Shown here piece after piece: positions 34,714 to 37,688 of a DNA stretch of 64,000 nt; the stretch's first letter is position 1; each line of letters begins with the position of its first letter. Both the position numbers and the translations under genes were made by a program. The stretch comes from Pseudomonas sp. ADAK13 (GTDB lineage Bacteria; Pseudomonadota; Gammaproteobacteria; Pseudomonadales; Pseudomonadaceae), in the NCBI RefSeq assembly GCF_012935715.1, contig NZ_CP052860.1:6758001-6822000 (forward strand), in the 5' to 3' direction. Under the pieces are notes generated by a model that was not told where the DNA came from, did not search any database, and worked only from the letters and a program-made list of their open reading frames with translations.

Positions 34714-34872
34714 ATGCAAGCATCTGCCACCGTCATCGATTTCACCCTCCACCGCAAACGCCGCCAGGCTCGCGCAGCGGCTGAGTTGATGTGGGCGATG
34801 TACGCGGCACGGGCCGGGGTCGCGGTGTTTACCGCACACGTCACCTCCTCCAGCGATACCCGCCGGGCGTGA
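34714..34872 (+). CDS. 52-residue small protein upstream of the XRE-cupin gene
   Basis: Basic, helical protein (MQASATVIDFTLHRKRRQAR then AAAELMWAMYAARAGVAV) with a hydrophobic middle. It ends 4 bases before the regulator ATG, so the two are almost certainly one transcript and translation of the regulator may depend on this ORF. No family recognised; could be a leader peptide or a genuine protein. Confidence 0.5.
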   Translation: MQASATVIDFTLHRKRRQARAAAELMWAMYAARAGVAVFTAHVTSSSDTRRA

Positions 34873-34876
34873 GGCG

Positions 34877-35515
34877 ATGAATTTCCTGCATGCGATTCCC
34901 GAAGTGCCCGACCTCCCCTCCAAATCCAAAGACTGCAACAGCGGCGACGACGACGCCATCGGCCAGTGCGTCGCCCATAACCTGCAACGCCTGCGCAGTA
35001 AACGCTACCTGTCGCTGGATGCCCTGGCACGCAACTGCGGCGTGAGCCGGGCGATGTTGGCGCAGATTGAATCCGGGCGCAGCGTGCCGTCGATCAAAGT
35101 GCTGTGCAAGATTGCCAAGGGTTTGAAAGTGTCGGTGGCGGCCTTCCTGGAAAACCGTGCGTTCGAAGGGGTTGAACTGCTGCCGGCGCAACAGAGCAAA
35201 CGCCTGGTGAGTGCCGATGGCACCTTTATCAGTCGCGCGCTGTTTCCCTACGATATGGCGCGCCAGTCGGAGTTCTACGAGATACGCCTGAAGGCCCTCG
35301 GCGAGGAGATTTCAGAGGGCCATGGGCCAGGCATCCAGGAAAACCTGGTGGTGGCCCAGGGCGTGCTGGAAGTCAGCGTGAACGAGGAACGCTACCTGCT
35401 TTCCACCGGTGACTCGATCCTGTTCTACGCCGACCAGCCCCACCGCTACCGAAACCCCGCAGACAGTGAGGCGGTGGCGTTCCTGGTGATCACCTACCCG
35501 GAACGGCTGGACTGA
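34877..35515 (+). CDS. XRE-family regulator with C-terminal cupin
   Basis: 212 residues: helix-turn-helix (about 45-95, LSLDALARNCGVSRAMLAQI) and a cupin sensor domain (about 130-205, with GHGPGIQENLVVAQGVLEVS and FYADQPHRYRNP). Such regulators bind a small ligand in the cupin. Target unknown; the divergent TonB receptor is a candidate. A terminator shared with the Met-rich gene follows. Confidence 0.88.
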   Translation: MNFLHAIPEVPDLPSKSKDCNSGDDDAIGQCVAHNLQRLRSKRYLSLDALARNCGVSRAMLAQIESGRSVPSIKVLCKIAKGLKVSVAAFLENRAFEGVELLPAQQSKRLVSADGTFISRALFPYDMARQSEFYEIRLKALGEEISEGHGPGIQENLVVAQGVLEVSVNEERYLLSTGDSILFYADQPHRYRNPADSEAVAFLVITYPERLD

Positions 35516-35522
35516 AACGCAA

Positions 35523-35548
35523 AAAGCCCCGGCACTCGCCGGGGCTTT
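35523..35548. terminator. Bidirectional terminator
   Basis: 11-bp stem AAAGCCCCGGC/GCCGGGGCTTT with a 4-base loop, serving the XRE-cupin gene and the facing Met-rich gene. Confidence 0.88.
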
Positions 35549-35568
35549 CTGGTTTCACGCCAAACGAA

Positions 35569-36081
35569 TCAGCAGGTGCAGCACATCATCGGCATGCCGT
35601 TGCAGCTCATCATCATCGGCATGGCGCAGTCGTTCATCATTTTCATCATCAGCATGCAGCAGTTGTTCATCATGTCCATGCTCATGCCCGGCATCGGCAT
35701 CATCTTGCAGGTCACGCAATCTGCTTCCATCTTGCATTCCATGACGCACTTCATCATCGGCATAGGCATGCCCATCGGCATCATCATCGGCATGTTCATG
35801 GCAGACATGCTGCTCATCATCGCCATGCCGTCTTCAGACATGCACATCATCGACATGTTGGCGCACTGCATCATCATCGGCATGCCGCAGTTCATCATCA
35901 TCGCCATCATTTCGGCGTTGTTCTTGAACATCGCCATGTCCATGCCCGCGGCCGGCTTCATGGTGCACATCATGGCCTCGTCGGTCATCTTGCAGGTCAT
36001 GGTGGCCATCATCATCGGCATGCCCATCATCGGCATCATAGGCATCGCGTTGTTCATTGGCATCTGCATGGCGTTCATCAT
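35569..36081 (-). CDS. Extremely Met- and Cys-rich small protein
   Basis: 170 residues, of which 70 are Met (41%) and 16 Cys (9%); there is no His, Arg, Trp or Tyr. Met clusters alternate with single Cys, e.g. MPMMPMMGMPMMM at about 13-25, NCGMPMMMQC at 64-73 and CVMECKMEADCVTC at 112-125, CC near 141 and CCTC at the end. GGAG lies at a normal distance before the ATG, the non-Met codons have GC-rich third positions, and a terminator follows, so this is a real gene. No signal peptide. Dense thioether and thiol ligands suggest a Cu(I) or Ag(I) store or an oxidant sink. The complementary strand is also open, an effect of composition. Confidence 0.78.
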   Translation of the reverse strand: MMNAMQMPMNNAMPMMPMMGMPMMMATMTCKMTDEAMMCTMKPAAGMDMAMFKNNAEMMAMMMNCGMPMMMQCANMSMMCMSEDGMAMMSSMSAMNMPMMMPMGMPMPMMKCVMECKMEADCVTCKMMPMPGMSMDMMNNCCMLMMKMMNDCAMPMMMSCNGMPMMCCTC

Positions 36082-36195
36082 GTTCGAAACTCCGTAATCG
36101 ACAGGAAATGAGTAAGTTCTGGGGCCGATTCTAGAGATGCCGTACAACGGCGCAAGGCGCTGGCCCAGCAGCAAGAATAGATGCTGGATGGGGAT

Positions 36196-36272
36196 TTATC
36201 GGAGCGAGGCAGCCGATAATTCCGTGATAACAGACCCTATGACGCGATCACGCCGGACAGCTCCGTTATCGG
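36196..36272. promoter_or_regulatory. TTATCGG repeats upstream of the Met-rich gene
   Basis: TTATCGG at 36196, its complement CCGATAA at 36213, and TTATCGG again at 36266, within the space upstream of the Met-rich gene. The first pair forms a 7-bp inverted repeat. Possible operator for a regulator of the Met-rich gene or of the divergent region; not assigned. Confidence 0.35.
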
Positions 36273-36359: not shown

Positions 36360-37688
36360 TCACCCGGCGAAGAATCGGTTCGCCGGACGCGGCAACCCGA
36401 GGTTTTCCCGCAGGGTAGAGCCTTCGTACTCCCGCCGGAAGATCCCGCGCCCCTGTAACTCGGGCACTACCTTAGCGACAAAATCATCGAGGCCGCCCGG
36501 CAGCCACGGGAACATGATGTTGAAGCCATCGCTGCCCTCTTCCTCCAGCCACTGCTGCATCTCATCGGCAATGCTGTGGGCCGTGCCGACAAACGACAAG
36601 CCGGCATACCCGCCGAGGCGCTGGGCCAGTTGGCGCACCGTCAGTTGCTCCCGATCAGCCAGCGCCAGCACCCGCTCCCGGGAGCTTTGGCTACCGTTGG
36701 TTTCGGGAATCGCCGGCAGGTAGTGGTCAGGATCAAACTGGGTTGCGTCGGTACCCAGTGCTATCGACAGCGAGGCAATCGCACTTTCGTAATGCACCAG
36801 GCTGTCGAGGTGAGCACGAATTCGGCGGGCCTCTTCCGGTGTATCGCCGACCACCACAAACGCCCCGGGCAGAATCTTCAGGTGGTCGGGATGCCGCCCC
36901 ACCGCCCGCATCCGGCGCTTGATATCGGCATAGAACCTGCGCCCCTCCTCGAGCGTGCCCGGCGCGACAAAAATCACCTCGGCGGTTTCTGCCGCCAGTT
37001 GCCGCCCGGGCTCCGAGGCACCGGCCTGCACGATCACCGGCCAGCCCTGCACCGGCCGGGCAATGTGCAGCGGGCCGCGCACGTTGAGGTAGCGGCCCTG
37101 GTGATTGAGGGTGTGCAGCTTGTTGGGGTCGAAGTACACGCCGCTGTCGGCATCGCGGATGAAGGCGTCATCGGCCCAACTGTCCCAGAGGCCGGTCACC
37201 ACATCGTAGAACTCCCGCGCCCGGGCGTAACGTTCGTCGTGGGCGTAGGCCTGTTCCAGGCCAAAATTCTGCGCGGCATCCGGGTTGGCGGTGGTGACGA
37301 TGTTCCAGCCGGCGCGACCGTTGCTCAAATGGTCCAGGGACGCGAAGCGCCGGGCGATGTGGAACGGTTCGTCGTACGTGGTCGAGGCCGTGGCCACCAG
37401 GCCGATGTGCTCGGTGACCTGGCTCAGGGCCGACAACAGGGTGAACGGTTCAAATGAGGTGGCCGTGTGGCTGCGCTTCAACGCCTCGATGGGCATGTTG
37501 AGCAGGGCCAGGTGGTCGGCCATGAAGAAGGCATCGAAACGCGCCTTCTCCAGGGTCTGCGCAAACTGCTTGAGGTGCGTGAAGTTGAAGTTGGCGTCGC
37601 GGTAAGCGCCGGGATAGCGCCAGGCGCCGGTGTGGATGCTGACCGGGCGCATGAACGCGCCCAGTTTCAGTTGGCGTGGAGTGGTCAT
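36360..37688 (-). CDS. LLM-class flavin-dependent monooxygenase (NtaA/SnaA/DszA type)
   Basis: 442-residue luciferase-like TIM barrel that uses FMNH2 and oxygen. N-terminal KLGAFMRPVSIHTGAWRYPG and the family's GWNIVTTANPDAAQNFGLE near 130 are clear. Such enzymes cleave organosulfur compounds, nitrilotriacetate or similar molecules; the substrate cannot be told. No flavin reductase gene is adjacent. Confidence 0.88.
   Translation of the reverse strand: MTTPRQLKLGAFMRPVSIHTGAWRYPGAYRDANFNFTHLKQFAQTLEKARFDAFFMADHLALLNMPIEALKRSHTATSFEPFTLLSALSQVTEHIGLVATASTTYDEPFHIARRFASLDHLSNGRAGWNIVTTANPDAAQNFGLEQAYAHDERYARAREFYDVVTGLWDSWADDAFIRDADSGVYFDPNKLHTLNHQGRYLNVRGPLHIARPVQGWPVIVQAGASEPGRQLAAETAEVIFVAPGTLEEGRRFYADIKRRMRAVGRHPDHLKILPGAFVVVGDTPEEARRIRAHLDSLVHYESAIASLSIALGTDATQFDPDHYLPAIPETNGSQSSRERVLALADREQLTVRQLAQRLGGYAGLSFVGTAHSIADEMQQWLEEEGSDGFNIMFPWLPGGLDDFVAKVVPELQGRGIFRREYEGSTLRENLGLPRPANRFFAG

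Follow-up and report, generated by a model that had tools for sequence, protein, structure and literature searches.

An earlier note, made from the letters alone, had drawn attention to a 170-residue protein of extreme methionine content encoded within the window, i.e., the whole stretch of 64,000 nucleotides of Pseudomonas sp. ADAK13 analyzed here. The corresponding gene is located on the minus strand (the earlier note gave no strand) and lies tail to tail with the adjoining gene at 34877-35515, which encodes a conserved XRE-cupin regulator, a partner that had not been named. The following features were assigned to this locus:

34714..34872, plus strand: open frame of 52 amino acids, ending 4 nt 5' of the regulator start (pattern match)
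34877..35515, plus strand: XRE-cupin transcriptional regulator (HTH_3 and Cupin_2), the convergent partner (Pfam, clustering, PDB match, locus counts)
about 35525..35546, no strand given: GC-rich hairpin between the convergent genes, likely a shared terminator (read from the sequence by eye)
35569..36081, minus strand: gene of the Met/Cys-rich protein, 170 amino acids and stop (translation, homologues, substitution pattern, codon usage)
35575..35754, minus strand: predicted second beta-beta-alpha-beta-beta domain, residues 110-169 (AlphaFold2, block pLDDT 86-91)
35839..36012, minus strand: predicted first beta-beta-alpha-beta-beta domain, residues 24-81 (AlphaFold2, block pLDDT 85-91)
36090..36093, minus strand: GGAG ribosome binding site, 8 nt 5' of the ATG (read from the sequence)
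36128..36133, minus strand: TAGAAT, conserved -10-like hexamer (pattern match)
36150..36155, minus strand: TTGCGC, conserved -35-like hexamer, 16 nt from the -10 (position read from the sequence)
36221..36234, no strand given: candidate operator TCCGTGATAACAGA (two mismatches to TCCGTTnnAACGGA; no other site in the 64 kb window matches as well)

Composition, selection and codon usage of the methionine-rich gene

Translation of positions 36081..35569 on the minus strand confirmed the reported composition of the protein: with 70 Met and 16 Cys, 86 of its 170 residues are Met or Cys, and His, Arg, Trp and Tyr are all absent. The GC-rich third positions described for the non-Met codons were equally found (GC3 of 0.88 over 100 codons), and the GGAG listed above fits the good ribosome binding site noted before. 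The N-terminus (MMNAMQMPMN) has no basic residue and, judged by eye, no typical export segment.

Selection on the reading frame was assessed in 76 distinct coding sequences (85 before identical ones were dropped). Only sequences that end in CTC were used, and these came from genomes of the same genus, contigs of Pseudomonas or the locus L083. The frame stays open across all of them. In non-ATG codons, differences per codon pair amounted to 0.238 at position 3 versus 0.095 and 0.113 at positions 1 and 2, and in codon pairs with ATG the third position was the most constant one. Single-base differences were synonymous in 64% of the cases (43,337 of 67,343; the pairs are not independent) compared to a random expectation of 22%, so that the substitution pattern is that of coding and not of non-coding DNA, a distinction on which the earlier note had made its proposal depend. 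The open reading frame is a real gene under purifying selection, neither a chance frame nor a simple repeat. Two long frames are open on the opposite strand at 35470-36111 (+) and 35516-36097 (+), one His-rich and one Ile-rich, and one of them is likewise open in 76 of 76 coding sequences; we read these frames as a by-product of the ATG/CAT composition.

The codon adaptation index (CAI) of the gene, determined with 18 ribosomal/EF-Tu genes as reference, was 0.81 and falls within the range of the reference set itself (0.62-0.88). This value tops all of 163 background genes (median 0.56; next highest values 0.81 and 0.80). The background genes were obtained by a simple GC3-based caller from the window plus ten further stretches of this genome and do not include the methionine-rich gene. 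The CAI also exceeds all 2000 same-amino-acid draws from background codons. Due to this extreme, ribosomal-protein-like codon choice, strong expression of the gene is to be expected. Of 73 upstream regions, taken from the window, the Pseudomonas loci and L083, 72 contain a promoter pattern of the type TTG-N16-21-TA[G/T]AAT, for which the chance expectation is 0.006.

The regulator partner and the spread of the pair

The regulator consists of an HTH_3 domain (PF01381, E 5.4e-12 at 36-88) and a Cupin_2 domain (PF07883, E 8.3e-12 at 151-205), both above cut-off. In the alignment, the regulators retain H, E and H at positions which we take to be those of the cupin motif. The best PDB match was 1Y9Q from Vibrio cholerae (E 2.3e-26, residues 31-210), and two weaker PDB chains matched parts of the regulator. 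1Y9Q and E. coli SutR share the domain architecture of the window regulator, but show only 39% (over 171 columns) and 31% identity to it, respectively, while SutR is 44% identical to 1Y9Q. As described by Trouillon et al. (2021; PMC7901475), 1Y9Q carries D-methionine in its cupin pocket. The paper on SutR, cited in PMC8464067, links this protein to sulfur utilization in its title. In an unrooted tree, which carried long-branch warnings, SutR, 1Y9Q and eight others formed a separate branch (100/99), and the regulators paired with the methionine-rich gene fell outside. The ligand therefore need not be the same, and a shared ligand is a lead rather than a result.

According to the same source (PMC7901475), XRE-cupins inhibit neighboring genes, and in Pseudomonas local units such as those of PsdR, PauR and ErfA the regulator is situated beside its likely target and exchanged with it by horizontal transfer. 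The pair described here resembles these units; however, enzymes or transporters make up the great majority of their reported neighbors, whereas here the regulator is convergent with a protein packed with sulfur.

Pfam and NCBIfam hold no model for the methionine-rich family, and no description was found among the listed matches of the open-licence literature, in agreement with the earlier note, which knew of no described family of this composition; a conserved family of odd composition can thus escape every Pfam and NCBIfam model. At E 0.01, a search of 5.8 billion proteins yielded 42 relatives; a profile built from 11 relatives, most of them single-domain, returned 325 at E 1e-5 among 7992 candidates scored, 120 of which were listed. 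Sources named among the listed matches are Devosia, Sorangium, Polyangium, Rhizobium, Tianweitania and Pseudomonas tohonis, and the family reaches across Pseudomonas, Alphaproteobacteria and Myxococcota. The homologues expected by the earlier note in related genomes do exist: the gene occurs in 17 of 144 relative genomes, and in 8 of 398 genomes of the phylum. Its spread is patchy, with changing neighbors.

In a scan of 84,980 species genomes, 188 of 487 stretches were confirmed, and the best 80 of these 188 loci were analyzed further (by title 71 Pseudomonas, one 'gamma proteobacterium', six Myxococcota, one Magnetospirillum and one Phyllobacterium). A relative of the regulator was located downstream on the opposite strand in 76 of these 80 loci; among the remaining four, two (L047, L055) end shortly past the gene and two (L057, L078) have no regulator in the stretch covered. 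When 894 neighboring frames were called by a simple rule and clustered, the regulator cluster was found in 75 loci, and every other cluster in at most 20. The tail-to-tail order also occurs in Myxococcota and Alphaproteobacteria. Regulators of 73-100% identity were present in exactly the 17 of 144 relatives that possess the methionine-rich gene, the next best being 36% identical. At the level of the phylum, a regulator at least 49% identical was detected in 11 of 398 genomes, i.e., in all 8 with the methionine-rich gene and in three others (G384, G456, G458), in which the regulator is 55-58% identical and no methionine-rich gene was detected, also with a second profile. The existence of three genomes with the regulator alone means that the pairing is strong, but not absolute.

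Two further observations concern the surroundings of the regulator. In three genomes of one family (L145, L146 and L147; f58), regulators of 55-58% identity lacking the methionine-rich gene are located upstream of a ribB-like gene (gene names by eye). In addition, a narrow pattern detected relatives of the 52-residue frame (..VIDFTLHRKRRQAR..LMWAMYAARAG..) in the equivalent position in 14 of 75 loci.

Predicted fold and conserved residues

The methionine-rich proteins of Pseudomonas contain one unit in two copies, and many other relatives possess a single copy after a Met-rich tail. The AlphaFold2 model of the window protein (35 sequences; pLDDT 76.9, pTM 0.67) shows two beta-beta-alpha-beta-beta domains, with a pLDDT below 50 for residues 1-19 and 95-107. 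For the single-domain relative P0029 a similar unit was predicted (pLDDT 82-89) after a low-confidence Met-rich tail (mean pLDDT 69.0, pTM 0.42). Among 40 single-domain relatives this N-terminal tail comprises 6 to 95 residues, and 32-65% of these are Met in the 36 relatives with tails of 15 or more. No convincing match to the protein was found among solved structures.

Within the same 40 relatives, C64, C81 and C98 (P0029 numbering) are 97-100% conserved, bearing out the conserved Cys positions anticipated by the earlier note. Four further positions are Cys in 53-80%, with C51, C55 and C106 at 75-80%, and 18 columns hold Met in at least 90%. In 35 two-domain relatives, the first-domain positions 30 and 73 are Cys in only 51-54%. 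Strand pairing and hairpin register in the models suggest that the conserved Cys and Met residues point towards the helix.

The earlier note had seen a loose resemblance to the Csp (DUF326) copper storage proteins, which are helical bundles with a Cys-lined interior. This resemblance was not supported, as beta-beta-alpha-beta-beta domains and no helical bundle are predicted and Met exceeds Cys fourfold; what both may have in common is the idea of a thiol-rich cytoplasmic store. There was no match to the Pfam model DUF326 at E 1 or better, and the only Pfam match obtained was FHIPEP (E 0.027), below its cut-off.

Neighboring genes and possible roles of the protein

To compare the surroundings of the pair, nine E. 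coli sulfur proteins (SsuA/C/D/E, TauA/C/D, MetQ and MetI), nine copper proteins and seven Msr/peroxide proteins were used as queries against the 80 loci with up to 6 kb on each side (935,872 bases). The 40 control stretches, each 12,181 bases long, were taken at round-number positions from seven genomes of the same genus that possess the methionine-rich gene; they represent one genus and accessory and other regions alike, whereas nine of the 80 loci lie outside that genus. The sulfonate, taurine or methionine transport set, which was picked after the neighbors had been seen, matched in 25 of 80 loci versus 1 of 40 controls (p 1e-4). After merging loci with two or more common neighbors, a sulfur gene occurred in 6 of 18 contexts (p 0.003), and in 3 of 11 contexts when loci were linked on one common neighbor. 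Copper genes (2 of 80 loci versus 7 of 40 controls) and Msr/peroxide genes (4 of 80 versus 1 of 40, p 0.46) were not enriched; MsrP matched in 2 and MsrQ in none of the 80 loci, and around the window gene the 6 kb on either side contained no match to either.

MetI or SsuA was located at most 600 bp upstream in 11 loci. In family scans of representative neighbors, SsuA and an NlpA/MetQ lipoprotein scored above cut-off, and the names SsuB, SsuC, SsuD and MetI stand for best matches below the NCBIfam cut-offs. The Magnetospirillum pair is flanked by a cystathionine beta-synthase/cysteine synthase-like gene (below cut-off) and by cysK (above). TonB receptors, FecR and further unrelated genes were also frequent neighbors. 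At the window gene itself, the same query test gave no sulfur transport gene within 6 kb on either side, and no such match in its context group of 12 loci either. A gene for an NtaA/DmoA-family FMN-dependent monooxygenase (36363-37688, minus strand; TIGR03860, E 1.3e-172) adjoins the pair and is outside the matches of the SsuD query; it is possibly sulfur-related. Relatives of CusA, CusB, CusR and CusS are encoded in the 64 kb window, none of them within about 6 kb of the methionine-rich gene (about 29.7-41.9 kb).

Since composition, codon usage, regulator kinship and neighbors agree on sulfur physiology, we commit, tentatively, to the reading that the protein may well be soluble and abundant in the cytoplasm, serving as a methionine/sulfur reserve under the control of an XRE-cupin repressor that senses a sulfur metabolite. 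This reading builds on the gene with its composition, purifying selection and high-expression codons, the predicted fold, the regulator partnership and the sulfur-gene neighborhoods in about a third of the loci. The dedicated repressor, encoded tail to tail with the methionine-rich gene, would sense methionine or a related organosulfur metabolite and is predicted to leave the promoter when this metabolite is plentiful. Surplus Met and Cys would then be parked in a compact folded protein of two beta-beta-alpha-beta-beta domains and a Met-rich tail, presumably located in the cytoplasm, and proteolysis would give them back upon sulfur shortage. Against such a reserve, the conservation of Cys and Met is more position-specific than bulk storage needs, there are genomes with the regulator and no methionine-rich gene and two loci with the reverse in the stretch covered, and the neighborhood evidence comprises a sulfur set chosen post hoc, several names below cut-off and no sulfur transport gene near the window pair.

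The near-invariant Cys are the best argument for a different role and keep it a live, if rather unlikely, rival: a cytoplasmic soft-metal store, in which a Cu(I) or Ag(I) cluster would be bound by the Cys and Met that line each domain on the inside, i.e., a Csp-like role in another fold. The predicted orientation of the conserved residues towards the helix is consistent with this role, and the cupin motif retained in the regulators makes a metal sensor conceivable. However, copper genes are not enriched around the pair, the two XRE-cupin signals called known in PMC7901475 are dipeptides and polyamines, Cys is present at two first-domain positions in only about half of the two-domain relatives, and the searched collections, with a low-complexity filter on, yielded no copy on a plasmid or phage. 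Of the earlier proposal of a cytoplasmic metal store or oxidant sink, the general part is supported, in line with the apparent lack of a signal peptide and the ribosomal-protein-like codons, whereas the copper and oxidant roles received no support from the neighbors, among which sulfur-nutrition genes are enriched instead.

The second of these roles, a sacrificial sink whose surface and tail Met would be oxidized by hypochlorite, chloramines or peroxide and re-reduced by MsrA/MsrB, as proposed for the periplasmic MrpX/BcrX, appears improbable, as there is little support beyond composition. The extreme Met content and the high-expression codons would suit it, and other Met-rich proteins are oxidized by peroxide and reduced by Msr in vitro according to PMC3514235. 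MrpX of Azospira suillum and BcrX of Brucella melitensis are likewise small Met-rich bacterial proteins with a dedicated regulator. However, MrpX is periplasmic according to the title of its paper, whereas the window protein has no signal peptide by eye and would be less exposed to oxidants in the cytoplasm. BcrX contains MXKDX repeats, and msrPQ-like genes and an ECF sigma/anti-sigma pair accompany its gene (PMC8315932); the window protein has, by eye, no M-x-K-D-x repeat and is paired with an XRE-cupin regulator instead of an ECF sigma factor, and the folded core with its conserved Cys would be superfluous for a sink. The missing enrichment of Msr/peroxide genes also argues against this role. 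The nearest published composition found (PMC3514235, Table 1) is that of MRP1/FeNos (ZP_00345849), a hypothetical protein of Nostoc sp. PCC 73102 with 33% Met and 12% Cys used as a reagent, which, compared by composition alone, could be a relative of the family.

The patchy spread, the changing neighbors and the lack of a convincing structural match might also suggest another role: the protein could be a folded partner that binds a protein or a hydrophobic organosulfur compound, or the two genes could form a selfish unit of an unrecognized kind. We consider this equally improbable, as the high codon adaptation and the sulfur-gene neighborhoods point to bulk sulfur physiology and Pfam and NCBIfam indicated no toxin-like feature.

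In plants, seed proteins such as delta-zein provide Met-rich protein as a sulfur reserve. The methionine/sulfur reserve favored above would share this proposed principle only, with no kinship suggested. Extended to several lineages, and held with somewhat more reserve, the pair is possibly a mobile two-gene methionine bank, in which a methionine-status repressor controls a folded, half-sulfur protein made at ribosomal-protein-like levels that stores and returns sulfur amino acids, a counterpart of the sulfur-rich seed proteins. No bacterial protein reserve for sulfur amino acids was found among the listed matches of the open-licence literature. If it exists, such a reserve would account for the way in which soil bacteria even out their methionine supply between times of plenty and of shortage, and the small size of the two-gene unit and its presence in plant-associated laboratory species, such as Pseudomonas protegens and P. 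chlororaphis, make it directly testable. A folded protein with a Met/Cys-rich core would also be useful for studies on Cu(I) binding, methionine oxidation and protein design.

Two elements upstream of the methionine-rich gene may be related to its control. The palindrome TCCGTTnnAACGGA was drawn by eye from Myxococcota loci, and its counterpart in the window, TCCGTGATAACAGA, about 140 bp 5' of the gene, is only suggestive of an operator. In eight loci (L018, L019, L020, L023, L048, L051, L089 and L093) a conserved GGAG[G/C]AAA block is present about 96-116 nt upstream of the gene (chance 0.003 per locus), in most of them preceded by TCC-N8, which is a possible operator or promoter element outside Pseudomonas.
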